A stretch of 64,000 nucleotides of DNA, taken from contig CM073321.1 of assembly GCA_037043015.1 (NCBI GenBank), positions 10,672,001 through 10,736,000 of the forward strand. Direction: 5' to 3'. The notes under the pieces are model-generated. The model saw only the letters and a program-made list of their open reading frames with translations, was not told the origin of the DNA and ran no database searches. The position numbers and the translations under genes are program-made. This DNA comes from Bryum argenteum. Its lineage: Eukaryota; Streptophyta; Bryopsida; Bryales; Bryaceae. This document shows positions 3,254 through 45,496 of the stretch, in pieces (position 1 is the stretch's first letter; every line of letters starts with the position of its first letter).

Positions 3254-4012
3254 AAGTGGCTGAACATTGTCTTCGACTTGAACGGTATACTTTGTCATAC
3301 AACGTTCAGGTCAACGCATGTTAGACAAAGATCATACAGTTTGGAAGACAATGTTCTCTGCCACCGAATTTCAACTAAAATTTGTCTTAAGGTGGTTTCG
3401 CCCGACCAAATCTTGGCGAATTCCACGCAAGGTTTTCTCAATGGCGGATTAGATCTTAGTGTGGACCCTAATGCAAAAGTGGAATACTAAACCCATTGTT
3501 GGGCACTTCTTCCGCAGAATCCGTGGTCCTTATGACATCCTCAGCTACAAACATTTTACGAAGATGGAGCTCTCTCGGGGGTGCTTCTTCTACGTTGGTC
3601 AGAAACTGATGTAATGAAGATCCTCTCCGAGACCTTGTTCACCAACCCTAGTAGGATCACATCCTTTTTCTTGGACAATACCCTTCTCATTGACAACTCT
3701 CCTATCAAGAGCATCTTCACTGAGATTGGAAATGTCGTGTTTCTTTGCACACGGAACTTCCATGTTGGAGAGGACGACTTCCTCTTCTGGGAACTCTTAC
3801 CATGGCTTCAGAGTCTAGACTCAAGGTGCCAACCAAGTGAGCTACAAAAATATGTTGAGGCCAATGAAATTGGTGTTAATCCTTTAAGTGTCGTCGACTT
3901 GGTTGTAGATCAGCTCATCGATAGGATAAGGGAGTCATTCACAAATATGGAGACGCGGTTCACACTTTCTGGGTTAGGCATGGTTGTTAAAGGAGGAAGG
4001 GTGAGGCATTAG
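3254..4012 (+). pseudogene. Decayed FCP1/NIF (CTD phosphatase-like) domain with DLNG motif
   Basis: One reading frame spans the segment. It opens with KWLNIVFDLNGILC, the motif I region of the HAD-type FCP1/NIF family. A region resembling the VxVWTS step follows (LLLRWSETDVMKILSETLF), then a LLIDNSP motif (the DD site of HAD enzymes, here DN). It ends with LPWLQSL and LQKYVEAN, typical of the family C-terminus. Normal family members use DxDxT, and here the second Asp is Asn, so catalysis would not be expected. Two in-frame stops (TAA at 3488 and a TGA near 3535) break the frame, so I call it a pseudogene. A longer relative lies at 23606-25054 on the other strand. Confidence 0.6.
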
Positions 4013-19774: not shown

Positions 19775-20580
19775 GTCATACTGACGCCTTGACGTTATAT
19801 CAATGTCTATTGTAACGTGTTAACGGTTAAATTACGTCAATAGTGACGCGTCCACATTAACAATACGTCAATAGTGACGGGAATGCGTTAAAACATTGTC
19901 AACATTGACGCATTCACATTTAGACTATGTCAATAGTGATGCGTTCAAACTAAAACAACGTCAATAGTGCTGTGTTCACATTTAAACTACGTCACTCGTT
20001 ATGGGTTAACGGTACACTAACGTAAATAATGACACTACTTGGACTTCATGTTTTTCCAACATCAATACTAACGCGATCACGTGTAAGCAACGTCAAAATT
20101 GAGGCGTTCACGTTGAAACTACGTCAATACCGACAAATTCACGTTAAAACTACGTCAATAGTGACAGGTCCAAGACTTCACGTTCAAACATCGTCAATTG
20201 TAACGCATTCACGTTGTTGCGACGTCAGCAGTGACGATTTCGCGTTAAAACTACGTCAATCATGACACGTTCACATTTAACTAGCGTCAATAGTGACGCG
20301 TTTAGGACTTCATGTTTCAACAACGTCAATGGTGATGTGATCATGTTAATGCAACGTCAATAAGGACGTGGTGATCCTAAGACTACGTCAATACTGACGC
20401 GTTTACGTTAAAACAATGTCAGTATTGACACGTTCACGACTTCATGTTTCAACAACGTCATCAGTGACACGTCCACGTTAAAGTAGGGCCACTAGTGACG
20501 CATTCACGTTATACGAGTAATACGGCGTCAAAAATGACGCATTGGTGTTAAACATGCGTCAATAGTGACGCATTCATGAT
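19775..20580. repeat. Minisatellite built on the imperfect palindrome CGTCAATAGTGACG
   Basis: Roughly 24 units of about 30-35 bases occur here. Each has a core close to CGTCAATAGTGACG (arms CGTCA and TGACG around ATAG), followed by CGTTCACGTTAAAAC-like spacer. The cores continue at lower density to about 21280. Arrays of short motifs near element ends commonly bind the transposase in CACTA elements. That role is inferred here. Confidence 0.75.
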
Positions 20581-21402: not shown

Positions 21403-22592
21403 CATTGTTAACTCGACAAAATTCAAACATTACCACGGCCAAAACAACTAAACAAAGCCAATGCTCAGTCTAGGGCAACTGCACGACAACTTAGTCACCG
21501 AAGCACAACACGTGACAAAGTAGACAGACTCTGCAGAAACCCCAACGTTGCTCTCACAGAACGAAGTCGGCACGAATGCCCCTATAGTCGTACATATTAA
21601 TCACATTCATGTTGCCCATACTACCCCATGGTATGGGGGGTACAACAATCATAGTCAACCAAAGTTGTCAAATTGGGCGTGTTGAGGTGATCGGGCGGGC
21701 AAAACGGGCGTACGAGTTGTCCTAGACGGGCTGGCGTGCCTGCCCACCTTGATTGTAGGAGGTGTGTATTTTTCGTGGGTAACAAAATTTGCAGCAAAAA
21801 GCGACGTAGGATGTGACGTGTAAGTCCATCGTGGCATTGGGGCGGCTGAAATTGTGCCAGGGCGGGTGAAAGAAATCGAACTCACCAGCTGATGTCATTC
21901 ATAGCGTCAATTAGTACTTTGTATTCTGCATGTCCGTCAAAGACAATGCAGTCGACAAAGAAATACCAATCCGGATCATCTCTACGCATCTGCTCAATGG
22001 ATTGCATCCAAACAGTGATGCGATGATTCCCCTCGTAGATGTAGAAACACCATATTCATTATTTTGAGAGTATCCCTCAAGAATGAGAGTATTGTTGAGG
22101 CCCAGAAGTAATGATAAAAATACAAATAGTCCGTAAAAAGTGGTATAAAGTAGATATAGATGGATGAATAATTGTATGCCAGACTGGAATATACATGAAT
22201 GTATGTTTATTTATAGACATTGTATACAAGAATTGACTACGTCAAAGGAAATATGCTCATCCAAATATATATGTGAGCTCTAGTTACATATGAATGATAC
22301 GAATGTACGATGGTAAATACGATATTTCTATACCAATAGAACAATACAGTATGGTGTTGAATGTGGGCTATCCCTGGAGAACCATACCGATCAATGTACT
22401 CTAAATCATATCAAGACTGTTGCCGTATCACAAGTGCGAACGGCTTCGAATTTCAGCTAGTGCCTTCCACACTTCTGGTCCACGACTGTAGCCTGTGTAT
22501 GGTGACGAACGCGAACTTGAATTTTCACGTCGCTGAAGCTTCAAAATCCGTTGCTCCAATGCATCGCGAACTGGAGGAGAACTAACTCTGGA
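21403..22592. other. No gene recognised; possible hAT-type terminus at 21655-21860
   Basis: At 21662-21730 there is AAGTTGTCAAATTGGGCG followed by several CGGGCGGGC-type motifs, a composition like the subterminal regions of plant hAT elements. A similar reverse-complement motif (GCCCGCCCGGTATGACAACC) lies near 55484. No transposase is attached. The rest is AT-rich with unsupported short frames. Confidence 0.3.
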
Positions 22593-23340
22593 CTAAAATC
22601 CATCGTGTGTCTGAGTCTGGCGGTGACCCTCGTGTAATGGCGGGCGCATAGTACGGAAGCGCAAACGCGAAGTATCAACAGCGTGGGCAACAGACGGATA
22701 AGGTGGCCTCGTTAGTTTCGTCCCGTAGTCTCCAAGTTTTGTTGCTGGCTCCAAAGACTTCAATGGACAAGGCGTAGAGAGAGAATGGGTCGACGCACCA
22801 CGAGATATTTTCAGCGACGATGCCTTATGAGGTGATAAACGAAGAGCCGGAGACTCGAAAATGACCGGTATGGGCACGACTGCTGCAGTTGTCGCCTAAG
22901 TGCATGAAAAGACATAGAGAAATGTAAGTAAATCAAACTACGATTGAAGTTAAAAACTAGGAAAAACTAATAAATGAACTGCTTCAAGTATGTCATACCT
23001 GTACCGGAAGTGCATCATCAACTAACTCAAAATCATCGTAAAGCTTTCTTTGCGGAGCGCCACCTCGACTTGATTCGTCTATTAGGGTACGGTTCTCCAG
23101 CGGGGAAGGAGAACATGCAGAGTGTGGTCGCTTACCGCCAAAAGCAGGACTATCCACAACACCATCATCAATTGCCATTGTCGAGTAGTCCATAGTTGAT
23201 TGTGCAGTAGCTGATGAGTACATCATATGGCCCATTCCACTCTGCGAAATTGAGTATTGTCCGTAGTCCAAAATCGAATCAGCAGAAGCAGCGCATCGGA
23301 AATCAAAATCATTGTCCGAAACCGAGACGGAATTGGACAC
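22593..23340 (-). CDS. Two 3' exons of an unknown low-complexity protein
   Basis: Minus strand. Exon 23340-22999 (114 codons) starts after an ATCCAG acceptor and ends at a GTATGA donor. Exon 22895-22593 (101 codons with stop) starts after a CTTAG acceptor. The phases agree (0/0). The product is rich in Ser, Asp and Pro (DNDFDFRC, SRGGAPQRKLYDDFELVDD, then basic/proline-rich), with no recognised domain, and looks disordered. There is no start codon, so upstream exons must exist. A GTAGAG donor near the end of the neighbouring DLNG gene (after ELINA) is in phase, so these may be alternative 3' exons of that gene. Expression evidence would decide. Confidence 0.45.
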
Positions 23341-23605
23341 CTGGATACGAATTCATTTTAGAGGAATCATCAACAAGGATGATATGCAATATGATATAAC
23401 CAAATCAACTTGACGCGAGTTAAACCAATGCTGAGAGAACTAGCATCATCAAATACTACAATAAAATAAAGGGTCGGACACAAGCCCGCTCTGAAATGAC
23501 ATCAGTCCGGGAGGAGACATTAATATTGAATCATTTATTATAATCTACACAATATACATGACAAATTTGAATCTTGTCTAGTGAGGCCAATCTTGGTTAA
23601 CTAGC

Positions 23606-25255
23606 CTAATCAAGCACTAGCTTCCTAGAAGCCTCTACGGCGTTAATAAGCTCTTCGTATTCTGAAGTATCAAGCTCTTCAGAGAGCATTCTACGCCCAA
23701 TGTTGTCTTCCCTACGGAAAGACAACAAGCCCTGACCGCGGCTTTGATGTAGACGTCGAATCCAAGGGAGGAGCTCGTCCACCAAGAATCTGTCAGATAC
23801 ATCATGCTCTGACCACGAGACTGGCAGTACGACATTCTCTGGTTCATTCACGACGTGCTTCTCACGGCTATCGTCGATGATGATCGTGTCATGCTCATTA
23901 AACTTTAAGTTTAGACCATTGAAAAGCATATCCAGTGGTTTGAGGAAGAGATCCTTATTAGTCCCCTTCAACTTGAAGTTGGACAACTTATTCCGCGGTC
24001 CTCGAACCTTGACAACCTCACAAGAGTTCTGCCCCCAAACAAGGCACGGGTATGGCACACCCCGGAACAAGTAGTCACATATGGACTTCGTGGTCACATG
24101 AACCATCGAACTCCATACGGAGACGTATGCAACTTCACTCAACTCACGAAGGAAATCATGGCAGAAGGGCCGAACGAAAACAGCCTTGGGACCAATCGGA
24201 GCGGGTAGGACAGAGGAATGTGCACTCGCGACCATGTTGTAAACTTGGTCCTTTGGCATGAATCTCTTCTCCTTGCAGACACAGAGGATACCGTTCAAGT
24301 CCAGGATGACATTGAGCCACTTGCATGGCACCCTTGAAGGAATAGAACAAGGGATATCCTCCACGGCTGCAACTACCGGACTGTGCGAATGACTCATCCC
24401 CTGTTCAGAAGGGGGGCAGACAAATGTGTATACAGTTAAGTACTGCACTGCCACATTTCGAGACTGACCATTTCTATAACACTAAGAAATCCCGAATCCA
24501 AACAATGCGATCACACCGAACTAATAAGGAAAGGATTGAATGAGATTTTGGAGAAATAGCAGCTTACCGGCGTATCTGATTGAGTTTCAGCTGTTTGTGA
24601 ATCTCGTACAGCGGTCGAGGATGGAAGAGGAATGTGAACCTCGAGCAGTATGGAATCCGGAATGTGACCTTCATTGTGATCATCTTGCGGCGTGTTACTT
24701 GGCTCACCATGAAACGGACTCATAGGACTAGTGTCTTCCATAGGGGGGACGTCATGAGACACACAAACATTCGGAACACTTCGCAAATCAATAGAGCCTG
24801 CGTAGATATCAGAGGGAGAAAATGTGTAAGAAAATATGATTGTATCCCAAACTGTGCGTTCAAAATTGAGCGTCATATACAGAACGTATTTACACGATGA
24901 GCACCAAGTCCAATCTAACAAAATTGTCCTGTGGGAATATATATACTAGTCTATCAACAACTGTCGAAGGCTTCTACAGGCGAACTTCCATTAATCGAAG
25001 GAGAAATTCAACTCGAGTCGAGTTAATTGAAAGACTAGATCATGGAGTTCAACCTGATTTGGTAACGTTGGGATCGAGAGTCTGATCCTGTGTTCCTATC
25101 TGTTCTTCCTCATCCACGGCCTTCCTTTCCGACTCGACTGGGTCCGATGGTGTGGAGCAACTTGATGGGCCTTGATCCCTAGAAACACCTTGAGTGATGT
25201 TGCCCGCAGGTGAGGGAGCTGCAGTCGACTGAGGAGGCGTGCCTTGGAGGGAACG
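23606..25255 (-). CDS. FCP1/NIF-family (CTD phosphatase-like) protein with DLNG motif
   Basis: Minus strand, at least three exons: one ending at 25054, then 24797-24568, then 24400-23606. The junction phases match (1 then 0), and the first junction creates VTKSG|SIDLRS. The early exons are acidic, Ser/Pro-rich and probably disordered. The last exon has the HAD domain: motif I WLNVILDLNGILC (about residue 34 of the exon), RPFCHDFL...YVSVWSS, then IIIDDSREK and DELLPWIRRL. The usual DxDxT is DLNGI, so the second catalytic Asp is Asn and phosphatase activity is doubtful. It could instead bind a phosphopeptide. Its 5' end is uncertain because of a TGA at 25256, upstream of which the coding character continues. 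It may be a 3' extension of the neighbouring ParB-methyltransferase transcript. Confidence 0.6.
25006..25028. repeat. Intronic 23-base palindrome, single copy
   Basis: Arm ATTCAACTCGA, centre G, then TCGAGTTAATT. It lies in the intron between the 25054 donor and the 24797 acceptor of the DLNG gene. It is an isolated member of the family that is dense further right. Confidence 0.8.
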
Positions 25256-25320
25256 TCAGGGAGATGCATGTCGAGCTGCACCGCTGTCGGAAGACTGAGT
25301 AGGCCCGTGGGTCAGGAGGA

Positions 25321-25386
25321 GAGGTTCACTCTGACTTGGTTCGATGGAGAGGAGAGGTTCACTCTGACTTGGTTCGATGGAGAGGA
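25321..25386 (-). repeat. 33-base in-frame tandem duplication
   Basis: Two copies of a 33-base unit containing GAGGTTCACTCTGACTTGGT lie side by side. On the minus strand they encode the repeated peptide SIEPSQSEPLL, so the duplication keeps the frame. Confidence 0.7.
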
Positions 25387-25398
25387 GAGGCTTTGCAT

Positions 25399-28300
25399 TC
25401 AGGTGCACATTGCTTGGACTACCATCTCAGGCATTCTCACGAAGGCCTCTGTCATCATAAACTTCCATCGTTGCTCATCCTCCTGTCTCTGGGCTTTGCG
25501 TTCCTCGCGCTCTCGAGCAAGCATTGCTTCAACTTCGATCCTATGTCGCGTCTGCGCATCCTCCTGCATTTTGACGAGCTTCTCCATAAAGGTGTCAACG
25601 AATAGAGACTCCCTTTTCCTCTTCTGTGGCGATGGCGTGGAAGCCCGAAGAGAGGTATCCGAGTAGCCTTGTTCCTGGGGATGAGGAAGATGAGAAGATG
25701 AGCCTCGTCCAGTTTGGGGGGTTACCGGGTGTTGGGAACCGTAGGCCTCAACATCCTGGACATGATCATCATCGTCATCACTTGACCCGATTGCGATCGG
25801 TCTTGGGTCATGCACGTCAAGTGGTAACTCTACTCCCCTGACCTTCTTCTTCCCCTTCTCCGACTTTGTGGGGGGTGGCGGTGCTTCCAGTCTCTCTCTC
25901 GATAAGGAAGGCTCATCGATTGGGTACCCTTCTTCGAAATCTCGACGATCCAAGTTGAAGACATCCAAGGAAAGTCTGACAACTTCGTCGTGCTCTTCGC
26001 TGGAGCTGATCGTGTAATTCATCAGAGAACACATCTGCAAGTAGACACATCAAGAGATGCAAAGTCAATCATATGAAAGTTTAACTCGAGCCGAGTTGAA
26101 ATGGAGGTGGCGTGTGAGAGCAAGACCAGACTACACTTCTATGTGCATTCAACTCGAGTCGAGTTGAATACCATATATAAACTCTAAGTGCCATCAAACA
26201 CCAAATTTAACTCGAGTCGAGTTAAATATAATAACGCATGCAAGAACAAGATTTCGTAGCATACTTAGTATTCCATTCAACTCGAGTCGAGTTGAATAGA
26301 ATTCAAGTTAGTGTAAAACGATCCCTGGTCACTGGGGTGCGCACTGAACTTGACTCGACTTAAATACAACTAGCATTGCAAGCAACAGAGTCATGGCGAA
26401 CTATTCAACTCGAATCGAGTTGAAATACATAGGATATCCTTACCCAGGCCGCACAGTAGAGCTTCCCGCCTCCAAAAACACTGAGGATCGCATCTCCTTC
26501 CTTGCAGAAGATGTCAAGCAGCTTCAGGTAGAACTCCATCCTCAATTCCGTATTATAGATACGGTACTCGAGCTCGTTGTATCTCCCGCATATCTTGAAC
26601 TGTGGAGTGTCGGGGGCCTGGAAGAACTTGGGGAGATTCGAAATCCTCAACTTCTGAGATTTTCGAAACAAGAAGAGGATCTGGACATGATCCTTGGCCC
26701 TTGCCTTCGACGAGTTTTGGTCCTCGAGTCGCTCGTAAGGAGCCGGAACGTACTCTGCATACTCTATCTTGTAGTTTGCTCCGAACTCGCAACTGTCGAG
26801 GTGATTCTTGATTTTCGCCTCAACATCCTTACTTCCGCAGATCCAAACCCAAACTGGGATTTCAGTTACCACGGGGTCCATGATAGACTTCAGGACTTGG
26901 AGCACATTGTAGAAGTAGGAGCCTGATGACGAGTTCGATGACGCTGATTCCTCATGTGCTCCAGGGAGATTTCGGAAGTCCATAATTCCGACCTTTATTC
27001 TCTTAGCGGACTGATCATTCCAAGAGTCATCGTGCCATTCCCCTAGAACATCGTCCTCCAGGTTGTAGGCTCTGAAGTTTGTTTCGCCCCTCGGAACCTG
27101 GAACTTCCCCTTGTTGGCGAGGAAGCATCTGAAGAACTCTGTTGCATACGGCGAGAGTTGCTCAAAGGACTTGTTCTTGTTGCTGGGGAATTTCGCCAAC
27201 GTGAAGAAATTTTCCCCGGGATTCGTGAGGAGAACGTTTAGTGTAGCTGGAGTGATCTTAAAATCCTTCTTGAATTTCTTCCAGCTCTCCTTCCTGAAGT
27301 CTCCACTTGTGCTGAAGAACATTAAGTCAGGGCGCATGCTGTGAATCACGCGCTTCACGATGGTCTTCCTCTTGCAGCGCTCCAGCCAGTCGTAAGAGCT
27401 GTAGCAATCTACAAGCACACCCTTTATCTGCTTCAATGTGAATTTGGGGTACTGGTGTCGCCGTTTTGGGTTCGGTCTGTTCAGCATATGCTCGGCTAAT
27501 CGCTTGATCTGGGCGTAGCTACAGTTTCGGATCCATTTGAAGAACTCCCTGGTGAGGTGTCCATGGTCAGGCTTCCACTTCCCCAACTCCTTCATCTTCC
27601 TTCCTGTTTCGGGGTCGATGAGCTCCCCTTGGAATGCGGAAGAGATTAGCTCAGACCAGATGTCGTAGACGTCATCTGGAGCAGTGATGATTTTTAGCTC
27701 ATTTTGGATAGTGAGGTTCTCTCTGGCCGCCTTGCTAGTTGTCACTGCTCTCTGGGCGTTCTTGACGTCGATGAGAGCAAATCTTGTCCTGACAGCTTCC
27801 ATGAACTCCTGTATCAACCGAGTACGATATTCACTTAGATATTTAATTCGAGTCGAGTTGAAATAGGATACAGCGGGAATGAAATCCAAAAATCATCGTT
27901 AGTAGTGTAGGACAGTATTCAACTCGAATCGAGTTGAATGGAGGTACACATACGTTGAAATTGTCCTTTGCAGGTTTCTTGCCCTTGTCGGGCCTCTGTG
28001 TGACGACCCTGCCAACCTCAAGACCCTCCTTTGGATTCTCCGGTCTACCGAGGCTTTCCCACAGCTCCCGCGCCCCGATGATGTTTGTCGCCCACGTCGG
28101 ATTTGTATTCATGAAGTGGTTGACCCTGTTGTAGAATGCGGAGATTCTCCGAATGATGGGCTTATCTTCGTTCCAAACCACAAAGCAGTCCCATGCCTTG
28201 AATGCATCCCTGATGCTAGCATCTACATCAAGCCGGGTTTGCAACTGCTTGGATGCCTCGACGCAATGTTGTCCGTTGACCATGTAGAACTCCCCGTCCT

Positions 28301-31300
28301 TTATGTCCTCCCAAGATTGGAGTTTCACTAGCTGATCCTTTGGGTAGACGCAGAGGGTGTTCTTCTTGCTCTTATCGGACATCTCAATCAGGAAATGCAT
28401 CGTGTGCTTGACTTTCTCCTGCTCGAGGTTTCGGATGTTCAGGTCCGCAGGGGGGGTAAAGAGACGCTCGATTGGAATCTCGTAAGTCACATCTGAGCCG
28501 AAGATGTATGAGTCCTGGCAAAGCCCCCAGTAGTTCTTGAAGACATTCATGGACTCCTTGTAATCGACAACTTTGTCTACATTGTCGATGGGTACTTCCG
28601 TCAAGGCCGACACTAAGCTCGCCTGTTCAATCTCAGTGGGGTCGGCTAAGGTCGACTTCTTCGTCGTGACCGATTTGAGCTTCTTTTGTGTCGGCCCCCG
28701 CTGAGCTGTGGACGGATTCGCCTTGCGCCTCTTCGATCCCGTCGGCTCACGAGTCTGATAGAGGATAGACTCGTGGCTGCCGCTTTGCATGCTTACTTCC
28801 TGCGTCAGACGAAGGGGCGTCACTTGCATCTTCTTGCGTTGCAGCTTCGCCTTGAAATTCACCATGGCAGTGACGAGTGATCGGAGACGAGGCGCGAGAA
28901 TACTGGATGGCTGTTGTTCACCGCCATCTTTTGTGAATTGAAACTCACGAATGTGTTGCTCGACATTCTTCGCCAAGGGTTCGTAAGGAGTATTTTTTAT
29001 ACTGTCGACATGTGCCCAAATGTCGAAATCCATCTTCGTTGTGTCGATCATGTAAGTGAACATGTAGTCTTGGTCCACAGCCGTGTCCTCGTTGGGGTTG
29101 TCCACGATGCACGTCACGCAAATCCAGTGGGTGTTGTGGACTACAACATCGCTGATGTTCTCCTCCAAATTCACAGGAAGGTTGCACTCTGCACCCGTGT
29201 ACTTGGTGACGACAGCCAGCTTGTTCGTGTGCGGTGTGAGGAGCATACTCCACCATTCGACATCCACAGGCTCTCTGTGCATCCACATGTCCCCAAATAT
29301 TTCGGGATCTGCGACCTCGCTATCCTTTTTAGGAACATAGAGACTGAAGAAGGCTGAGAGCCTCTCCTTGGGATTTTCTCCTGATGAGAAAGAGAAGCAA
29401 ACTTAGTATTTATATATACGAATTGCAAGTATTAGTATTCAACTCGAGTCAAGTTGAATTAGAATTCTAATTGTCTCTGTCAATCTACAATTATCGGTAG
29501 CAACTGTCCAGGTAAGTGTTATTCAACTCGAGTCGAGTTGAAATTGCATTCTATCTCTCTCTGTTAGTCTACGATTATCATTAGCAAGGAAGTGGGATTC
29601 AACTCGATTCGAGTTGAATGTATCCGTCATGGCGTTTTGTTGTTTCTTAATACAGAACTTAGTTACTTTCAACTCGACTCGAGTTGAATTAATGCTGAGA
29701 GTGAACGTTCATCATTTTACTCTAATCAAGGAGTTCGTATCAACCCATGTATTTTATCAATTTCAGTCAGGGAATTGTGCCTTACTCTAGTTGAGTTTGT
29801 CATGTCAGTTTTCAGCCCAATGATTACTCATTCTATTTGATGTAATTTCTACCATCGAATAATTCAACTCCACTCGAGTTGAATATTATGAATCTCTTTA
29901 AACTGCATGAAAATATTATAAGTTCCTTCCTATTTCAACTCGATTCGAGTTGGATTATGTTTATGCTTTATTATGCACTACAGTAATTCAACTCGAGTCA
30001 AGTTGAATATGTACATTGATTATATATCTCGTATTTTATCGATTCAACTCGAGTCGAGTACATTAATTGTCTTTTTTCGCACATGCGCAAAACTAATTCA
30101 ACTCGATACGAGTTGAATATTTTACTAACACTATAACAATAATTTATCAATTTAACTCGAGTCAAGTTAAATTGTTCGAGCTGCGGCAAGTAAGTAGCAC
30201 ATATGGGGGAAGTAAATCAGTACCCTTATATCTCGTCTTGTCTGGATTCAACTCGAATCGAGTTGAATCGTTCAAGCCTAAGCTATCATTCACTGTTAAA
30301 GGGATTCTAGGGCAGAGATTCAACACGGGTCGAGTTGAATTTTCCCTTGTCTGTGAACTCGCGTTTTAACTCTCAGAAACAAATTGGATGGACTGTTCAA
30401 CTCGCCAAAAACGACTGGATGGGGAATTCAACTCGGCCGGGGTTGAATTTGAGTGTAGTCTATAATGTCGGTGGCATGCAAAGGTAAAAAACTGTGTTTC
30501 CAATTCAACTCCGGTTCATTTGAACTGCTTATCTTTATTGAATCTTTCGAACATCAACACAACTCGGCTACGGTTCAATCGATCTGAATTGTTCTCTACG
30601 CTAAGTATGTACAAACTAGTATTTTGAAGAACATGCGAGCACATATATCCAATGCCAAACTATTCCGCGGAAACTTAGTCACATTCAACGAGAGTTAAGT
30701 ATTGAATACTCACCCATTCTGTTGTCTGCTTCCCTGCTAGACTGTGGATACCGAAATTAACTGGACAAGCCTCGGCTTCGTCCTACTCCTGAAGCAAACA
30801 ATGAATAATTGTAAACAATGAATGATTAGAACATGAAAATTTACAATGACTGATTCAAAGTGAAATTCTCAACACTAACGCAGATTCAAGTATGAAAGAA
30901 TCACATAGTAGACCAATTCAATTGCAATTGATTCACAAACCGATGCTCTGGAAGTGAACACAAGCATTCTAATTATCTGAAATCACTGGGAAAAACCTCA
31001 TTGACAACTCTCACCAATTCGAAATTCATCAAGTTCATTAACTTCCTCGAATCAACCCTAAACAGCTCAAACACAACCACCTCTTTTGTTTCAACATTCA
31101 CATTCCAGATCTGCTCTTAAAAATCAGGGTTCAGAAATTTTATAAACCAGCTCCAGTAGGCGTGTTTTCTCTGCTTTCCTAAATCAGACATCTAAACTCA
31201 AACTTCCTCCTCATCTTTTCAATGTAGTCACTCAAATTTCAAGGATCCCGAAACCTAGTAAAATTCAACTCTTGAAGTCCAGAAAACTGACAGAAATGAC

Positions 31301-31454
31301 CAAAAATTGCAAACACCACAGACTGAAATTGCAAATCTAAAGTTGCAAACATTGGCCGTTAACTTACAGAGAAGGTTGTGAAGTCCAGGAACTTGGTGAG
31401 CGCTGCCAAAGCTGCAGAAGCACCGTCAAACGAGCCACCCACTTGATGCCGCAT
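25399..31454 (-). CDS. ParB/Srx-like domain fused to DNA methyltransferase-like domain, multi-exon
   Basis: Minus strand. Supported exons: 31454-31368 (ATG, 29 codons, GTAAGT donor); a probable exon 30775-30708; 29380-27954 (475 codons); 27808-26444 (455 codons); 26034-25399 (starts ATGTGT after TTGCAG). Phases are consistent except between the second and third exons, where a small exon is probably missed. The 475-codon exon holds a ParB/sulfiredoxin-like site (FYMVNGQHCVEASKQL, about residues 363-378), followed by ISAFYNRVNHF. The 455-codon exon holds a class-beta amino-methyltransferase fold: VWVWICGSKDVE, then a PYERL strand region, then the AdoMet motif LSVFGGGKLYCAAW at its end. The next exon continues the fold (ISSSEEHDEVVRL), then an acidic tail and a coiled coil. 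No clear (D/N)PP(Y/W) catalytic motif is visible, so methylation activity is uncertain. ParB-methyltransferase fusions are known from phages and bacteria. A eukaryotic copy with introns is unusual. Confidence 0.65.
26079..26425. repeat. Palindrome cluster in intron 26035-26443
   Basis: Five good copies (from about 26079, 26147, 26205, 26275 and 26403) and one decayed copy (about 26344), 58-70 bases apart. The copy at 26205 has both arms changed in parallel (ATTTAACTCGA with TCGAGTTAAAT). Confidence 0.85.
27841..27939. repeat. Two palindromes in intron 27809-27953
   Basis: Copies at 27841-27863 and 27917-27939 nearly fill a 145-base GT-AG intron. The flanking exons (1365 and 1427 bases) contain none. 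Confidence 0.85.
29437..30580. repeat. Dense palindrome array in intron 29381-30707
   Basis: About 13 good copies, at 29437, 29521, 29597, 29667, 29862, 29933, 29986, 30042, 30096, 30150, 30246, 30318 and 30426. Three decayed copies (about 30395, 30500 and 30557) lie towards the right end. Spacing is mostly 50-100 bases. The central base is G, A, T or C in different copies. Confidence 0.9.
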
Positions 31455-34323
31455 TTATCTCAAAAAGCAGACTCTAAGCTAACAGGGTCGACGCGCAGAG
31501 CTAAGAGAAGCAAAAAGCGTCGGGGAGCAGAGCAAGAAGCAAGAAGCAGAGCAAAAAGAGCGAGTAGATACAAAAGAGACTATATAAACATGAACGAACA
31601 TGACCTTTGAGGCCAGGAGATAGCTAATTCGAGGCGACGAGCTAGCGACTGTCGGGGCCAGAACTACGCGAGCAAGAATGCAAGAAAACACCAACTAACG
31701 CAAGAATGCAAGAACGCCGAAAGCCAAATTCAGCAAGCGCAGCGCAGGAGCGAGGAAGAAGAGGAATACAATGGGGGCCAAACCCTAGCCCCCCCCCCCC
31801 GCTCTCCATTCCCGGCCATAATTCGAGCGGGCTGCCCGTAATCTTGCACAGGCCGCCTTTTGCACTGCCCTTGCCTACCCGGGCCGCCTTACATGCTGCC
31901 CCCGCCAAATATTGCCCCGGGCAGCAATTTCTTGCCCTTTTCATGTCTGCCCGTCTCTACACTACACTAAATTCCATTATATTTTTCATTTATTTCTAAC
32001 TATTTTTATTAGTTAATTTTTTTGAAAAGAAGATAAGTTCAATAAATGCCTATTCTAACACTATATGTATTGTAATCGTAAAATTTTAGACTCCACAACA
32101 CTTTACAATAGTATGTGTAGTATTAGATAAAACGTGTCTGCGAAAATACCATGTTTTAATTACTAAAAAGTTGTGTGTAGTTTTATATTGAAAGAAGATA
32201 CAAACTTGGAAAAAATTACATTATTTAATTGGCAATACCCAAGCACTAATTCAACTTCGATTATGTCATATCCAACTTCCCAATTAGTTAACGTTCTCCA
32301 ATCCAATAAGGTCATCATTCACTTGAAAAGGAAGCTAATAAATTATCCCCTCTCTATTAATTTCTAAGATGTTGTCAACTCATAAGATTTTATTAATAAT
32401 ATAAACAGCTACATATTAAAAATATTAGTGGATAGATATATAATCAGGTAGGAAGGTTTGAGAGAACGAATTGGACAATATAAATAAGACTGTGAGAGTA
32501 TATAGATAGAAGATATCTTTCAGAAACATCATGTATACTATAGACATGCATCACACATATCATGGCCATACATCACACATATCATCGACGTACATCATTC
32601 ATACCAAAAGATCGTCCAACAGTATTATGTTTTAGAAGTAGATTACTGACTACAAACCTTATATATATCTCTATATACGTATACTAATTTATTTATATGT
32701 TCATGTATATACATATTTGAACTCGTATGCGTATATAATTGGGCTTTCCTTCTCTAAATTAAGATAGCACAATAAATGCTCAACATATATTCAAATTTAT
32801 GTTAATATTGAACATAATTGAATTAAAATTCCATGAAGTTAACTTATGCACCAATGTCTATGTATATACATACGTACTTATTTAGGTCATCATATTCAAT
32901 TTTACTTGTATGTATATCTCCATAAACGTATATTAATTTATTTATATATTCATGTATATACATATTTGAACTCGTAAGCGTATATAATTGGGCTTTCCTT
33001 CTCTAAATTAAGATAGCACAATAAATGCTCAACATATATTCAAATTTATCTTATAACATATTAGCTGACTGAGTTGAAATATTATGTATATAACATCTAT
33101 ACCCGTACCTATGTACATATACATACTTATTTATCTAAGTTAATATTCATTTGTACTCGGGTATATATCCATGTATACCTATTTGAACTCGTATGGTCAT
33201 ATAATCGCGCTTTCATTGTTCTATATTAAGATAGTACAATAAATGCTCAATACGTAGTCAAATTTATCGTATAATCATTCATCATTGAGTTGAAATATTA
33301 TGTATTTAACATCTATACCCGTATCCATGTACATATACGTACTTATTTATCTATTCATATACATTTGTACTCGTATATACATGAAGTAAAATATTATGTA
33401 TTTATCATAATATGTATTTAACATATTATGTATCTAACATATTATGTATATATTGATGTATATTTATATGTATTCATATGCCCATTTATTTGTAGTGATT
33501 TTATTCTATGTTAGTATTTTATGTTTTTTATGGTATTTTTTATAAGTAGTGTACCATATATTTGATTCCATAGATTTTGGGTTACTAAGTAAAGTATTGT
33601 GAATGGAATGTTCTCAATTACTATAGTTACTCTAATTTTGTAATTATTATATCTTATTCAATAAATATATGAGTACAAATTTGTATTTTTTTTCCACAAC
33701 TCATACATGTGTATTGAATGTTTAATTTTATGGAGAAATCATGAAAACACATTTCCTTGTTAAAAATAAAAAATGCATATTTACGAATGGGTTTCCCTCC
33801 AAAATCAGTTTCCCGCCGAAACATCTTTGCCGCCGAATATTTTCAAAATTCAAAACTAAAATGTAGAATCCTATTTCGAAGCCCAATCAAGATAAAATGC
33901 AGGTTGCGACAAAAAGAGGTCGGCTTTTTGCACGATATCGGGCGTCGAGGATACTCGACCGATTCAACCGTTGAGGTCGGGTTGGGGTGCTAACGCAGTC
34001 CCTCATGTTTCATTTCGATTTCTCTCACTCTCGTCCCTGCTTTGAAGATGCGCTTACCTTGATTTCGTTCCGCTGTTCTTGTTCAAAGTTGCGTGTCTGT
34101 TTAGATTGTATTTGAGTTTGTGCTGACGGAGTTTAAAGTAGTTTCCCATTCTGAGGTTCCAGTATTGTAGAAGAGGCGCATGCTCTTATACTTTGATTGT
34201 GTTTCAGGTTATCGAAGTTGCTCGTCCTGTATTGTTTGTCTTCCGCATACGAATTGCTGATTGTTGTGCGTGCTTTTTTCAGTTGCGAGCCCTAGTATTC
34301 CTCGCGAAATCTGTAATTTGCAG
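31455..34323. other. AT-rich gap between divergent genes, with a triplicated unit
   Basis: This contains the promoters and 5' ends of the two divergent genes. A GC-rich patch at 31790-31945 has CTGCCC/GGGC motifs. At 32690-33270 a unit of about 235-250 bases occurs three times: ACATATTTGAACTCGTA, then ATATAATTGGGC, then AATAAATGCTCAA. No palindromes of the flanking family occur here. A 5' UTR exon of the plus-strand gene probably lies between about 34000 and 34323. Confidence 0.5.
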
Positions 34324-35220
34324 GTGAGCGTGCTTCGGAATTCCTCAGTGTTTCAGCAGTTACTGTGTATCATTGATTTTTAGCTGGTTATGAGTTCCGG
34401 GAATTCCGCCGATATTTCCGGGTGAATGTGTTCAGCACAGGGCTCTATATTTAAAACATTCAACTCGACTCGAGTTGAATTTATATTGCCATAGTATGTA
34501 GGTCTGTTCAATTTCAACTCGAGTCGAGTTAAATTGTGATTCAGTCTTGATTACATAATTAGGATTTTATACTAATAGGTTGTGATATTCAACTCGACTC
34601 GAGTTGAATTGGAAATCAACCAATTTCATAAGGGGTTCTTCCCTTTATGGTACGGATATTCAACTCGGGTCAAGTTGAATCACGGTGTGGATATCAGTCA
34701 GATTACAGCAGCAAAATTGTATTCAACTCGAATCGAGTTAAATGTGGATTCCCAAGTATTTTGTGATACAATCTATATGTATCAATGAATTTCATGGAAT
34801 CCGATATGCTGTATTCATGGATCTTCACATTCAACTCGAGTCGAGTTGAAATGGTTATCACCAAACGATTCCTGTGGTTTACTTTAGTCTTGTCGAATGT
34901 AGTGGTTTCAATATCGGGCTCAGATACGTGATATTATTATCTCCCTAACAGGATTTAACTCGAATCGAGTTAAATCAGAATTAGCACATATTTAGTGATA
35001 TACATTTCCGTGAAGTAGATTCGCTTCAATTTTCTGTGGGCATTCAACTCGATTCGAGTTGAATTCATAGACATCTTAGCTGGCAGAGAATTTATTCCAA
35101 CATCTTGTCTACGTGTAAATAATTCTATTCGATTTCTGTCATTATTGTATTCAACTCGAGTCGAGTTGAACCGCCACATATTCTTCTGCTCCTCAAGTCG
35201 CGTTCGTGATTAATTTGCAG
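34324..35220 (+). promoter_or_regulatory. 5' UTR intron of the DUF7869 gene carrying nine palindromes
   Basis: A TTGCAG|GTGAGCG donor and a TTAATTTGCAG acceptor bracket 897 bases ending eight bases before the ATG at 35229. Nine palindromes lie inside, starting at 34458, 34512, 34587, 34658, 34721, 34829, 34953, 35042 and 35149. Long 5' UTR introns often influence plant gene expression, so the array may be regulatory. That is inference. Confidence 0.55.
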
Positions 35221-35228
35221 ACTCTACC

Positions 35229-38053
35229 ATGGCTGCTCAAGATGTTCAATTGCTTGGTGATTGTTCCTCTAATGAGGAGGTTGTGGAGCAACCCGAGGTT
35301 CCGGAAGACGTTCCAATGTGTGAAGGTATCGCTCGGCGTCTTTGGGCTACAAAGTTCGTTACCCTTTACGGTGACAAGGGTCGCCTTGTAGCGGAGGGCC
35401 TTTGTCACAGCATCAGTTACGATCTCGTACTCGGAAGCAATGGTCCACTTGGGCACTCCTGAGTCGCAGTTCAAATCTCGAGAACCCTTGATGCCACACT
35501 GGTGCCAGATGAGTGGAGATATTCTGTCAGGGCGTGGCCAATCGATAAAGTCTTTTATAATGGGGCTAGTCTCTGAGATACGACACGATCATGACTCTCG
35601 TGTTGCACGTCTTGCTAGACCTCAGTCATCGTGTAGCCGGAGTTACAACAATACATCTAGGAACCCGCCTACTGAAACATCCGTCAAGTCCAAAGGCTTA
35701 TTAACTCAGGAGTCTATCAATTCTGTCTCAAGCAAAGTATGCTGCACCAGGAACTACGTTCAGCCCTTCCCGAGGGACAAGATCCGATGTTTCCGAGAGC
35801 GGATGTATAGTGGTACAACCTACCAATTCAGGTTTCACATGAAGCTTGACGTTCACAGGCAGGTTCATCGAAATGCTGGCGGGAAGAGGGTGGTCACGGT
35901 TGAGGGAATCGATGTTTGCTTGCATGCGTGGAGACATATTGCTGGAGTGTCCGAGGCAACCTTTCATCGGTTTCAAACGTACGTGGCCGATGGCGTCATG
36001 GCGCATCTCCATGGAAATTCGTCTTTGCTTAAACCGCGCAAGCACACGTCGCAGGCAACTGCAACCCTGCGTTGCATCCTGGAGAACTCTGCTGATCACA
36101 TGCCGCACCGAACGAGGACACTAAAATCTGGAGAGAAGGTTGTATCCATGATTCTTCCCGCTACATGGAAATGGAAGAGTACCATCCCGGAAATCAACGC
36201 CGCAAACGAAGGCTTCGGTTTGAAGATGGTCTCACCATCTTCTCTGAGTAGAATTCGGAAGTTACACTTTCCTGAATTTGATGCAAAGAAACCCGGGGAT
36301 AACTTCGCTCGGTGCTCCAAATGTGATCGGTTGCACACACTTCGTCGTGGCTCTATTCCCGGGTCGCAACAAGCACTACTTTGGGCAAAGAAGCTCGAGG
36401 TACACTTGGCTGCAGCCCGTGCTCATCGGGAGTTATATTATGCAAACAGGTATAGGTCGAAAACCTACCCGCATGAGTGTTTGACCATTATGCATGACAA
36501 AATGGATCATGCGAAGACCGCTTCCCCTGTCTTTTCTCACAAGAGTAAGGAGCTCGATGGTCTCATGAAGCTACCGGTATCCGTCAGAGGAATGATTGCT
36601 CATGGCCACGGAGATGTACGCTACGCAAATTACGGTCTAGATATTTTCGCACACGATTCAAATTACAGGGTGGGCTCTTTTGCTAAGCTGCTCCGAGATA
36701 TAGAGTTGCCACCAAAGTACTCTTCGAGGGAGCTTTTTCTTCGGTCGAGGTCGGCACCTATCTTTGATGCTGTTCTCCAAGGTGCGGAGACTTGCGTATC
36801 GTCACTCCGTCCAGCACCAGCTATTCCACTTCGAGGAATTTCTCTTCCGCCAATTCTCAATGTTCAGATGGACAATGCAGCAAGGGACAACAAGAATAGA
36901 TATGTATTCTGTTTCTGGTCTCTCCTTGTCGCGAAGAAGATCTTCCGCGAGGTATATGTGAATTTCATGTTGGTTGGGCATACCCATGATGACATCGATG
37001 CAATGTTTGGAAGGTGGAGCATGCTGTTGAGGAAAGACAATTTCCCCACTATTCCGTTACTCATGAAATCTTTCATGGACGTGGAATCTATTCCAGCCAT
37101 CCCCCACCTTGTTGAAGAGGTGCCGGATTTTAAAGGATTTATTGATGGGTTTATCAGGGATGGAGGGGAAGCACTTGTTGGTCATACGTAGGCACAAGAA
37201 TTCAAGTTTTTTTTGGATTCTACAGGTTGTTCCGTGATGAAGTACAAGGCTTTGTGCACAGCACAAGATTGGTTGCCAAATGATACAACCGGAATTAAGT
37301 TGTGGAGAGAAGACTCGGAAGGTCGTTCTTTGTGGCCACGTGGTGATCCAACTCCTACGACGCATTGTGCAATGAGGGGTGTGGAGGACATTGTGAAGGG
37401 CATTTCTGGATTTATCAAGTACTGGGAGGCAATGTCTAATGAAGATAGAACTGGAGAGTATAGAAGACGCTATGAACATCTTGTGTTCTATTGGCGCGCT
37501 GTGAAGGCAGCACTAGAGGTTCCCATTGAACCACCGAATGTCCAGATTTTGGCCATTGTCCAGAATAGATGCGACTTTGGAGGACCAATTCGCTGAAGAT
37601 GGCGAACTTCGTGAGGAGTTTGGAGAAGATGAGGCATATGTTGGAGAGATCCGAGATCGCCCTCAACCATCTTTTCGTGTAGCTCGTGATGTTTATGAAG
37701 GATACTTTCTTGCTATTTGGCCTGCAGATGGTGACTCACGACCGGTGTGGATCGCTCGAGCGTTGTCAGATCCGAACATAAACCCCCAGCAACCAAATTG
37801 CATCCTTATTCAATTCTTTCGGCCTACATCAAGGGATCGAGATGTGCAAGAGACCTACAATGGATGGCATTCGGTCAAAGGATTGCGTTGGAAGGTTGAC
37901 GATACTCAACCTCCTTTGTGGGAGAATACAGCTTCATTGATGACTTCATGGAAGTCAAAGGTCAAGAAGGATACAACCGAGTGCACTTTAAAAATTCCGG
38001 TGGATCAAATTAAAGTCATTCACGATACTATAGTTGAATTTTCTAATGCTTGA
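35229..38053 (+). CDS. DUF7869-type, transposase-like protein with several in-frame breaks
   Basis: The start is ATG 35229 after the 5' UTR intron. The N-terminal part (35229-35462) ends at a TGA, but the same frame goes on in coding fashion. The main frame (35440-37191) has a CC...NYVQPFPRDKI region, GIDVCLHAWRHIAGVSEATF, and a cysteine pair CSKCDRLHTLRRG. It then has three acidic sites suggesting an RNase H-like fold: MHDKMDHAKT (about residue 350), QMDNAARDNKN (about 477) and GHTHDDID (about 514). A TAG at 37189 is followed in frame by AQEFKFFLDSTG. A further frame change near 37550 leads to a conserved-looking C-terminus (LREEFGEDEAYVG, SFRVARDVYEGYF, PVWIARAL) ending at TGA 38053. The DUF7869 name and the transposase role rest on remembered family patterns. 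Short introns or decay could explain the breaks. Confidence 0.6.
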
Positions 38054-38568
38054 AGGTCTTATATGTATTGCAATCGTATTTGTGTATTGTAACAACTACA
38101 TAGTCATGGCTTTGTCTTACGATTTAGAAATAATAATCTTTTGTTTCAAATTCAAAAGATTATAGGCATTTATAAATATAGAAGATATGTTAGACCAAAT
38201 GATCTACATGGATGTGTGGTTTAGGATGTTGGTAGTATCAATGGAATATGGAATATTTCAAGTCACTTAGCTCACTTCGAGCAACACTTTGTTTGTGGTA
38301 CTGGGTTTCATTAGAAATCAAAAATACATTGTACGCATTTATGAAAATATATTTCTATACTATATTATAGTATTGATTTGTTCTTTCCATTTAGTACTTT
38401 TGTCGATTGATTTATGTGAATAAAAATGATAACATGTATTTAATTTGTTATAAAAGGTAGTAGTGGTTAGCAGCACTGATATTTGTGTGTGTCATACATG
38501 TCACAGTTAAGGGTACGTGGTTGGTTGGTAGCAAATATTTTCCTGCCCGCCGAAGCTCACTTAGCAGT
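38054..38568. other. AT-rich 3' flank
   Basis: No supported gene. It probably contains the 3' UTR and polyadenylation region of the DUF7869 gene. Confidence 0.4.
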
Positions 38569-38682
38569 ACCAAGTCATGTGTACATTTTAGCTGCTCGAA
38601 CGAGTCCGATCGGAATCGAACTCGGACCACCTGCGTTATACGGAGACTCCTTCTCATCCAACAACTGAGCTCATGACTTGGT
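38569..38682 (-). other. tRNA-like or SINE-head sequence bounded by an 11-bp inverted repeat
   Basis: On the minus strand there is an A-box-like GAGCTCAGTTGTTGGATGAG. About 35 bases on is a B-box-like GAGTTCGATTCC, the internal promoter layout of tRNA genes and tRNA-derived SINEs. The segment is framed by ACCAAGTCATG and its exact reverse complement CATGACTTGGT (38569-38579 and 38672-38682), like an extended acceptor stem. A clean cloverleaf with a normal anticodon arm was not found, so I do not call a functional tRNA. Confidence 0.4.
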
Positions 38683-38905
38683 GTCCATTTCAAAATTACT
38701 CCGGTCTTTATATTAATCAATTGGAAGTCCGGCTTAGAAACGCCACGGTGCACAAACTTTCGCCCATATTATACTATAATTTGAATGGAAACTTTAAGAT
38801 TCATAACTTTCTAAGTTATTTGTGTACAACAAAACATCATTCTAAAACCTCTCAATTTCATTTTGAGAGGATTATTAACTCTCAAAATAATGAATATGGT
38901 GTTTA

Positions 38906-39287
38906 GAAGTATTTGCCACTGAATTGGCCAAGATCTGGATCGGCTTGCAATGAGATTTCGAACCAATCATTTGCCGCTTTCCAATGAGGGTTATTCCAAA
39001 CCGCATCATTGTCTTTCACTAGCCGCTGCTTCTCTTTCTTGCTGAAAGAAGAAACATATAAAATGTGTTCGCCCTCTCGATAACATTTGACAAACTCGTT
39101 TGCCAACTTGCAAACTGTGAACTGTCGAAACGGTTCACGCTTGTACAAAATATTATCTACAAGCATTAGTCTAATATTTTTATGTTCAAAATCCCCAATT
39201 GGGACGTTTAGGCTAATTCCTTCGCTTTCCGGAATTTCTATGATAATTGGAGGGGTCTTGCCTAAATGGCCCGGTAGTTGTTTAGTC
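38906..39287 (-). CDS. Terminal exon of an unknown protein
   Basis: Minus strand. After a TATAG acceptor-like site at about 39288 the frame is open for about 127 codons to a stop at about 38906. It includes TPPIIIEIPESEGISLNVP, then a Lys/Arg-rich part (SSFSKKEKQRLVKDND) and WKAANDWFEISLQADP. The composition is protein-like and not repetitive. No domain is recognised and no upstream exon was found. Confidence 0.4.
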
Positions 39288-42489: not shown

Positions 42490-45210
42490 GAAAGGGCAGT
42501 TTCGTCAACAAAAGAGGCTGTCAATTTTTAAGTGCGATACTTATTTCTTTCTTTAACAAATTTCTCAAAGACCCAATCCCATTCTATATTGGATATAGAA
42601 CACCGAAGCATCACCCTAGTAAGCAACCCAATATATCAAACACTAGCAAGGTGTCCAAAGGTTCAAATTAGGCAATTAGGTGCTCAAGATGTAGCAGGTG
42701 TTAATATGCTAATGACAAAAGGTCTACATTTTCAACAACACATGGTTTCCTATATAACGTCCTTGATGTCAATATCCCACCAAATGTTTGAGATCCTATA
42801 TGAACAATAAACAAATTCACATTTGAGTTCAAAATGTAAACAATTCTATTTCAAAGTCTTGGGGTAGCACTTTCGTCAACAAATGTGTCAAAGACATAAA
42901 CAAAAGTTCACTCTTTCCTATCAAACTTGATTCCGAACCACAAAAAAAATTAACAGTAATCACTTTAGTGACGAAGTTGCAAAACAAAATATCAATTTTG
43001 GACCTAGTGTGAGACCCCAGAAACAAACAGTACAAACCCCTCAACGTCCCTTTATAAGCAAACAGAATATAGCAATGGGGTTGCCAACCTGCACAATCGA
43101 AGTCAGGGCTAAAAAAGAACAATTTTGTTAACAAAAGAGGCGTTTGACCAAAGAAAAATGTTCCAAAAAATTTGTTCCAAGCAAATTGTTCCAAAAAATA
43201 AATCATAGAAATCACTTTAGTGACAAAGTTGCTAAATGAAGACCTATTGTGAGTCCCCTAAATTCTAAAACCGGACCCCTCAAAGTCCCTTAGTATGCAA
43301 ACAGAGCATAGCAATGGAATTGCCAACCTGCACAGTCCAAGTCAAGGCTACAAAAGAGCAGTTTTGTCAATGAAAGAGACATCTGACCAAAGAAAATTCC
43401 ATGAATTACTTTGGCTTGATTTTATATTTGCCACAACTTGAGATTGACTTAATTCTATATTTGCCACAACTCAAAATAAAATATCATTTACAGACAATAA
43501 ATAAGCACAAAAAGAACCTTGCAGATGCTATCTGAAAATCTAACAGTGCCCAACTACGGAGAGCTCAACCTGTCTGGTTCGGATCATGGGTCCAAAAGAG
43601 CAATTTCGTCAACGGATGTGTCAAATGTCTACTTGTTGATCAGTTCTGCATTCAGGTAGTGACCCTAGAACGACACAAAATGAACCAGGCCGAAGCTCTT
43701 AGTTAGAAAATCAGTGCACAGTGATGGATAGCTGAACATGGGTAATTCTATTCAGGGCTTGGAAAGAGCAGTTTCGTCAACGAAACAAGCAATTGACCAC
43801 AACAAATTTTTCGAAAAAAAATTAGATTTATTACTCAATTGTCAAAAATTGACACAATAACTCAACAAATAATACAATAAGATCAAACTTGGTGACAAAA
43901 AGTCCAGAAAATGGAATATCCACCAAGTTATAGCAGTCAAAATGACAATTTCGTCAACGAATGTGTTCAATACCTTCATTGAATTTGACAATGAGCATAT
44001 CAAGGACAACGTTAGCCAGAATTATTGAATGTCAACGTGTCCTCTTCAATATCAGAGCTCGCAGCGAGCAGTAGATAGAAGCCATTCCGGACAAAGCAAA
44101 TTAGTATAAGATGGAATTTCAAGAAGAGCTTGAATAAGTGCACCAAAATGACAGTTTCGCCAACAAAACTGGCAAATGGCATAACTTGAATTTGAATTGA
44201 TCATCCAACCTCCAGACTGAATACCTCAATGGAACAGATTATGAAAATGGAAAGTGCCAATCAGGGTGCCAAACTAGAGCTCCACAAGAGCTGTTTCGTC
44301 AACGAAAGAGCCATCAGCACAATCCAAAGAGGCAACAACACAATCTAGTGGAAGCCCTTCTTTTTTCGAACATAGTACAGTACTAACGGTGATCAACGTG
44401 GCCACTTCAATCTCCGATCAAGCAGTTTTGTCATAGACATATCACAGGTCAAAGTTGTTCAAATGAGGACTCACATTGAGCAGATTCATCAACGAAACAG
44501 GCAAAGCCATCACCGGTTTAGGATCTGAAGTACCATACTTCTAACTCACTGTCAACTCAGTCATGTTCGTATGAATCAAACCTCAATCAAAACTGTGAAA
44601 AATCAAACCTCGAGCAAATAGTAAAAAAACCGATTTATGATAAAAATTATGAAGACACCAGAGAAGTCGAATACTAAATGAGTGTGCAAGAGAAAGTAAG
44701 GTCTGTTCGACGTAAGTCGGCGAGTTTTGATTAGTCAATATATTCCAAGTTCCTCTCCCACAAGCACGTATCCTCCACGACTGCGTATACCATCCCCATC
44801 TGCCAAAGATAACCATCACCCTCTGAAGATACCAATTGACGTCGACATACAAAGATAAAACACCACACTGACAGTACTTTGAAAGGAAGTGGATTTGGTA
44901 GAAAAAGAGCCCGTCGTTCGGAAGCCACAAAATCTGCAACAAATTAAAAAAACCTAATCCTACACCAAGACTCCCACCGGCCAGACACCATATCACCTTC
45001 AAAAAAACCAACGGGAGTATGTATGAGAAAAAAGCAAATTGCAGCAAATCAATCAATAATTTTCAATCAACGTATGAATGAACTCCCAAAATTGTCCGAA
45101 AGACGAGTGCTAGCCGTCCTGAACGGGTTTAGCCTAAACATGAAATTCCTTCCTCTGAACATGAAATTCCTTCCCCTGAACAAGAAATGACAGTTTCGTC
45201 GACGAAACTG
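42490..45210. repeat. Degenerate array carrying GTTTCGTCAACGAAAC palindromes
   Basis: About 12 copies of a motif close to GTTTCGTCAACGAAAC recur every 100-250 bases. They start near 42499, 42869, 43121, 43361, 43602, 43771 (exact), 43947, 44152, 44293, 44424, 44484 and 45191. The last is a perfect 20-base palindrome, CAGTTTCGTCGACGAAACTG. Around 43010-43150 and 43250-43395 longer units are shared (TTGCCAACCTGCACA, TGACCAAAGAAAA). The array therefore seems to be a decayed tandem repeat with the palindrome as its best-kept part. Confidence 0.7.
44731..44941 (-). CDS. Possible exon of an unknown protein
   Basis: Minus strand. After a TGTTGCAG acceptor-like site the frame gives about 65 codons (SERRALFLPNPLPFK, then SSEGDGYLWQMGMVYAVVED and ERNLEYID stop). 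It lies within the GTTTCGTC palindrome block. No domain is recognised and no partner exon was confirmed. Confidence 0.25.
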
Positions 45211-45496
45211 TCGTAGACCACACTGAAAAACAAGGATTCATAAAGGACGCATGTCAGACTTCTCTGTGCAGAGAAGCATTCAACCAGTTGGGAGGACGGC
45301 TCATGAATATAAGCGCAAGGGAGAGCAATCGCAACTACAGTGAAAAGTTTGGAGGACTTGAGTATCAAGGTATTCATCAATAATGTTTCATTGAAGAACT
45401 TTGAAATATAAACCAAAGTTACACCCAAACAATTGAGGTGACATGTTACCTTAGTGCTCATAAATGTGAAGTTGATTCACAAGCCGGGCCGTGTGA

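Follow-up and report, generated by a model that had tools for sequence, protein, structure and literature searches.

In a 64,000-nucleotide window of the Bryum argenteum genome (assembly GCA_037043015.1, contig CM073321.1, positions 10,672,001 to 10,736,000), we find an array of near-perfect palindromes lying in the introns of a single DNA transposon, and sequence comparison leads us to think that these palindromes are rather probably double-stranded DNA binding sites for a family-specific factor, encoded by the element itself, that would keep the element's genes transcribable. The palindrome, ATTCAACTCGANTCGAGTTGAAT, has 28 matches in the window at up to three mismatches, a level at which 100 shuffles yielded none, and 30 at up to four, all between positions 25006 and 35171, in agreement with the roughly 30 copies that an earlier sequence-only reading of this DNA had counted. 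By intron the 30 sites divide into 1 in A, 5 in B, 2 in C, 13 in D and 9 in R, and they occur nowhere else in the window, so that the confinement to five introns claimed by that reading is borne out by the zone count. At up to four mismatches the palindrome is absent from the LX1, LX2, LX3, HAD and DUF7869 matches of the window, and from both transposon ends and the middle gap of the element; single half-sites with one mismatch stand at three places elsewhere in the element. Neighbouring palindromes are never closer than 41 bp. An 18-bp spacing period (p 0.0055) was one of 11 periods tried and was not used. Directly supported here are the single mobile element, the placement of the sites between exons, their conservation relative to the spacers, the lack of an RNA-hairpin signature, and the different symmetric sites of two sister families. 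The features of the element are as follows.

22042..22045, no strand: target site duplication TAGA, left
22046..38903, no strand: DNA transposon of 16,858 bp, ends 5'-AACACC...GGTGTT-3', common to copies e, f, h, m and q
22046..22071, plus strand: left terminal inverted repeat, 26 bp, perfect
23609..24481, minus strand: open reading frame with NIF/FCP1-type HAD phosphatase domain (Pfam PF03031, E 1.9e-15)
24401..24567, minus strand: probable intron before the HAD exon, 167 bp, GTAAGC..ACAG, no palindrome (best pattern fit 10 mismatches)
24798..25053, minus strand: intron A (weak donor, start unsure), 1 palindrome at 25006
25402..26034, minus strand: exon LX3 of the left gene, conserved in copies
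26035..26443, minus strand: intron B, 5 palindromes (26079, 26147, 26205, 26275, 26403)
26444..27808, minus strand: exon LX2 of the left gene
27809..27953, minus strand: intron C, 2 palindromes (27841, 27917)
27954..29380, minus strand: exon LX1 of the left gene (relatives P0001-P0006)
29381..30713, minus strand: intron D, the left gene's first intron, 13 palindromes
32660..33502, no strand: AT-rich repeats in the palindrome-free centre, their number varying between copies
34324..35220, plus strand: intron R, in the 5' untranslated region of the right gene, 9 palindromes
35229..38050, plus strand: DUF7869 gene, putative transposase (PF25273, E 1.2e-37)
38878..38903, minus strand: right terminal inverted repeat, 26 bp, perfect
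38904..38907, no strand: target site duplication TAGA, right

The sequence-only reading had described two divergent genes. They are one DNA transposon of 16.9 kb and not host genes, because the element has shared ends, 4-bp target duplications that are each copy's own (TACA, TTAA, ATAT, CCCT and AAGG in copies e, f, h, m and q) and many copies. Terminal inverted repeats, a target site duplication and multiple copies are the hallmarks of a cut-and-paste transposon, and the element shows all three. A search of the 259-Mb genome with the left 300 bp of the element gave 108 candidates, of which 40 were scored, and all 40 matched at 95-100% identity. Over long aligned pieces, the eight nearest copies mostly share 90-97% identity with the window; for other copies the figure is 72-91%. 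The gap between first introns D and R, described earlier as a palindrome-free stretch between genes, does lack sites, but it measures 3.6 kb and is part of the same element. The intron-linked spreading mechanism that had been proposed for the sites is not needed, as they move together with the transposon.

Most intron limits given by the sequence-only reading held, except that the left first intron runs from 29381 to 30713 and not to 30707 (donor GTGAGT directly after ATGG), and that intron A at 24798-25053, although it does carry its one palindrome, has an uncertain start at the weak donor GTTGAA. Splice sites were predicted from GT..AG in the other copies: at ungapped anchors, intron B has donor GT in 11/11 and acceptor AG in 10/10 cases, intron R a donor in 12/12 and an acceptor in 10/12, and intron C a donor in 12/13 and an acceptor in 10/13.

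Genome-wide, ATTCAACTCGANTCGAGTTGAAT matches 2,597 places at up to three mismatches (reversed control: 0). Except for the left-end search, all sampled stretches come from contig C1, and family counts rest on patterns and sampling. Among the matches listed there are 95 zero-mismatch places, all on the first part of C1; 11 of the 95 fall outside the fetched stretches, and the other 84, in the window or in fetched stretches, are each no more than 1,212 bases from a coding match of the transposon's genes, with 0 centres inside such a match. A scatter of copies without regard to introns is therefore not what this sample contains. Across 18 stretches totalling 243 kb, of which tblastn marks 79 kb as coding (L002, which overlaps L001, was left out, and L028-L038 lie outside the sample), 377 of 378 sites at up to four mismatches are outside coding matches, the remaining one, in copy v, overlapping the ragged start of a tblastn match. 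By nearest exon, the 378 sites fall to A (8), B (52), C (25), D (160), R (127) and LX3 alone (4), and two are unassigned, with only a HAD match nearby. In the four full copies (window, e, f and q), 112/112 sites lie in the five zones with D and R each defined as the 1,300 bases adjoining the exon match; copy h, which has a stray DUF7869 fragment in its flank, was left out of this count.

A sister family carries a related site, TTTAGCTCGANTCGAGCTAAA, which differs from ATTCAACTCGANTCGAGTTGAAT by two symmetric changes per arm and is found at 9,185 places at up to one mismatch (reversed control: 0). L037 and L038, two stretches chosen by place, contain LX1 and LX2 relatives 28-36% identical to the window proteins, and in 2/2 copies examined sister-type sites stand before LX1, between LX1 and LX2, and after LX2. 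Together these two stretches have 31 sister-type sites in all at up to four mismatches; one in L038 precedes the HAD match, one in L037 (627) is without an exon match nearby, and three in L037 that follow LX2 overlap the tail of query P0037, which reads through into the intron. At up to one mismatch L037 has 12 sister-type sites and no window-type site, and at up to two mismatches no window-type site in L037 or L038 was found among the matches listed. L012 contains three sister-type sites as well, situated past the end of its element. Relatives from metagenomes that read into an intron were compared with a template admitting both half-site types, with 11 tails set aside as too short and 4 fragments discarded. 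After LX1, all 5 of the 5 usable tails match the palindrome at 20-21 of 21 positions; after LX2, 8/21 do so at 19 or more. Because the sister family and the metagenome relatives carry sites at corresponding junctions, the comparison indicates that sites and genes have travelled together over deep divergence and that the site was altered on both arms at once. This suggests that each family may possess a private DNA address recognised by a protein of that same family.

We propose that a dimeric protein encoded by the transposon would read the palindrome as a dyad, the reader most likely being the left-gene product with a methyltransferase-like fold. Occupying sites along the introns and on either side of the divergent promoter, such a reader would mark the element's transcription units and would most likely keep its genes open against host silencing, by anti-silencing or activation, as VANC does for VANDAL. 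Introns would be where such sites can accumulate without harm to protein. A transposon could also exploit the binding sites of a host transcription factor or architectural protein, and the arrays flanking the divergent promoter would then be enhancer-like; we consider this unlikely, as all sampled sites lie inside the transposon, and two sister families in one genome with different sites, each nearly uniform within its family, are easier to understand with two element-encoded readers than with a single host reader.

The sites were compared with the spacers between them. In 11 distant pairs of first left introns, with gapped bases set aside, sites are 0.71-0.93 identical and spacers 0.52-0.78 (at most 0.63 in 9/11); the aligner may pair repeats out of register, so that these identities show persistence of sites and not one-to-one correspondence. 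There are at least two types of first left intron: between the window and copy h, spacers are 0.57 and sites 0.82 identical, with 54/299 site bases gapped. Within lineages, new states per aligned base number 119/5327 in sites and 992/21194 in spacers. Because site changes are thus about half as frequent as spacer changes, the sites evolve under constraint in spreading lineages, while single copies decay. The C4/G20 pair co-changes in 25/160 distinct 23-mers, 20 times in a complementary way (p 3e-5, the sequences not being independent), and such symmetric change at positions 4 and 20 fits a DNA dyad.

Perfect dyads fold as RNA too, and each site could form a stem of about 9-10 bp in the intron RNA that aids splicing, retention or the decoy of a host RNA factor. 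Such hairpins would suit the intron confinement, and the compensatory changes at C4/G20 suit a stem also. In an RNA hairpin, sense-strand changes from C to T and from A to G keep G-U pairs, and those from G to A and from T to C do not. Changes that keep G-U pairs are not favoured here, with 104 against 131 over distinct 23-mers and 39 against 32 per column, where spacers give 236 against 240, so that the preference expected of structured RNA appears in neither count. For this reason we consider RNA hairpins quite unlikely, and the role in splicing that had been suggested for them is unsupported; a protein-binding array stands as the best of the three candidates put forward by the sequence-only reading.

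Structure prediction assigns LX2 residues 239-455 (about positions 26444-27094) the fold of beta-class N6-adenine DNA methyltransferases (M.BceJIV, M.RsrI, CcrM) and the METTL3/14 and MTA1 relatives. Unlike these enzymes, LX2 shows no catalytic [DNS]PP[YFW] or DPPY motif in any of 36 aligned rows inspected by eye (P0016 and P0040 being incomplete there): DFRNLP stands at the expected place in the window, and DFRxxP or similar in the other rows. FGGGK lies near motif I in window LX2, and FxGxK near the C-terminus in many aligned rows. The LX2 protein is probably not catalytic. That the palindromes are substrate sites of this protein, with the adenine of the central GANTC methylated and marking the element, is very unlikely in view of the missing DPPY; N6-adenine methylation in land plants is, moreover, disputed. 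That the sites have no function at all, being remnants of short repeats multiplied by local duplication in tolerant introns (some blocks do resemble local duplications, with recurring spacings of 54/71/73/75/108), is hardly credible given sites conserved against diverged spacers, the same introns carrying sites in proteins 28-36% identical, and the absence of sites from the 3.6-kb gap and the ends.

LX1 has no credible Pfam or NCBIfam match and no domain assigned, and its structure model is poor (predicted local distance difference test score, pLDDT, 37.6). A likeness of LX1 to ParB/sulfiredoxin (NGQHxxxAS, by eye) was unsupported by Pfam, NCBIfam or PDB searches and is not claimed. Judged by eye, Physcomitrium model P0036 has an LX3-like stretch after LX2. 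In the viral collection, protein P0003 and the exact palindrome were both without a match. The DUF7869 gene of the window is broken by an in-frame stop at 37189 and by frameshifts, and relatives of about 940 residues are full length; by local alignment it is 91% identical to P0044 (939 residues), 84% to Ceratodon purpureus KC19_3G000300 (947 residues) and 67% to Physcomitrium patens, these two mosses providing the nearest named relatives. Residues D369, D494 and D536 are invariant and D534 nearly so, and these could form a DDE/D-type triad. Placement of DUF7869 in a known transposase superfamily is unsupported by the PDB search, which matched no solved transposase, and Pfam scans of the right gene and its relatives gave only DUF7869 and no MULE-type transposase.

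The closest known system is VANDAL/VANC of Arabidopsis (PMC5735166, PMC10398659). It shares with ours arrays of a single short motif that the transposon carries in its non-coding DNA, introns included, a motif that differs between sister families, arrays that evolve by local repeats, and an extra non-transposase protein encoded by the element. Arrays of a family-differing motif in non-coding parts of the element, a hallmark of VANDAL/VANC, are also found here; a further hallmark of that system is a protein that binds the motif and removes DNA methylation. VANC21 sites of VANDAL21 occupy non-coding DNA in introns, between genes and at the termini (PMC5735166), and the same non-coding parts of VANDAL are also targeted by RNA-directed methylation (PMC10398659). 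The VANC motif is the 9-base YAGTATTAY, whereas the motif here is a palindrome of 21-23 bp. The transposase candidate here is DUF7869, with no MULE-type transposase found, and the extra protein is predicted to fold like a DNA methyltransferase, with no VANC domain found. By analogy, the present system may work like VANC, but it is not a member, because neither a MULE transposase nor a VANC domain was found. Fungal DNA transposons with TET/JBP dioxygenases (PMC12730594) and retrotransposons with cytosine methyltransferases (PMC5890265) are alike in being mobile elements that carry a DNA-modification-type gene; their enzymes are other ones, and the accessible portions of these papers mention no intronic palindrome array.

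Several observations weigh against the palindromes being sites of an element-encoded, VANC-like reader. The promoter region and ends are palindrome-free here and sites occur only in introns, whereas VANC sites of VANDAL21 lie in intergenic and terminal DNA also; nor does every intron carry a palindrome, since the probable intron at 24401-24567 is without one. No VANC protein with DUF1985 was matched by Pfam in LX1, LX2 or LX3 at hmmscan sensitivity. The Foldseek match of the LX2 fold is modest (best E 8.7e-4, TM-scores 0.24 for the query and 0.49 for the target, one match at E <= 0.001). Helical phasing of site spacing at 10.5 bp is not significant (p 0.17), and the other 10 of 11 dyad base pairs show no co-change (p 0.078 to 1). 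Young pairs differ little between sites and spacers (site/spacer identity 0.94/0.94 for window vs s and 0.98/0.94 for h vs e). The window-type copies L016, L018 and L020 have one hybrid or sister-like site each, and 13/21 LX2 tails of the metagenome relatives fit at fewer than 19 of 21 bases, and shuffled tails occasionally reach 19-20.

A more specific version, which we regard as doubtful but worth stating, is that a moss transposon family may have converted a DNA adenine methyltransferase into a sequence-specific reader that is catalytically dead. The reader of each family would know its own long palindrome around GANTC, an address planted along introns but absent from promoter and ends. Only the family's own transcribed genes would thereby escape silencing, and sister families, with their thousands of sites, would keep matched, nearly exclusive address-reader pairs. 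If binding by an element-encoded reader is true, transposon families with private DNA addresses would be known from one more system besides Arabidopsis VANDAL, and this system could reveal the means by which transposons of plants avoid being silenced. The accessible portions of the cited literature do not describe, for VANDAL, long palindromes, restriction to introns or a companion protein resembling a methyltransferase. In the literature searched, mostly without subscription journals, DUF7869 is not mentioned, and no such arrays outside VANDAL were found among the titles and opening lines of abstracts listed. The presence of two sister families (2,597 and 9,185 places) in one genome makes address-reader specificity testable by site swaps.

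Some copies differ in structure or distribution. In five of them (L005-L008, L011-L012, L016-L017 and L020-L021), the first left intron cannot be aligned by blastn to window 29468-30896 and has its own palindromes; some of the five also differ in part of the neighbouring gap, and most of the rest is >90% identical to the window. Recombination between lineages is probably responsible. A 27-kb copy in L013-L015 (C1:12200001-12230000) has a second, partial right half, so that intron R and parts of DUF7869 occur in two places some 8 kb from each other. Contig C1 (44 Mb, 17% of the genome) holds 27/40 of the scored left-end matches, an excess that is perhaps partly a matter of order, as 68 candidates are unscored; C1 may be a repeat-rich or sex chromosome.

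Outside the transposon, a weak second HAD phosphatase match lies to its left at window 3677-3832 on the plus strand (41.5% over 53 residues, E 2e-4). To its right, window 42500-45212 has a second spaced array of TTTCGTCAACGAAA-like inverted repeats, with 13 matches at 10 sites, three of these sites matching on both strands, against an expectation of 0.74 for the window. Near 45189 it also has one perfect 24-base palindrome, GACAGTTTCGTCGACGAAACTGTC. No LX or DUF7869 protein relatives were found beside this array. Its repeat occurs at 103 and 82 places by strand genome-wide (control: 4 and 4), and it is possibly another transposon family with its own address. A tandem repeat family, its units 31 and about 132 bp long, occupies window 19778-20570.

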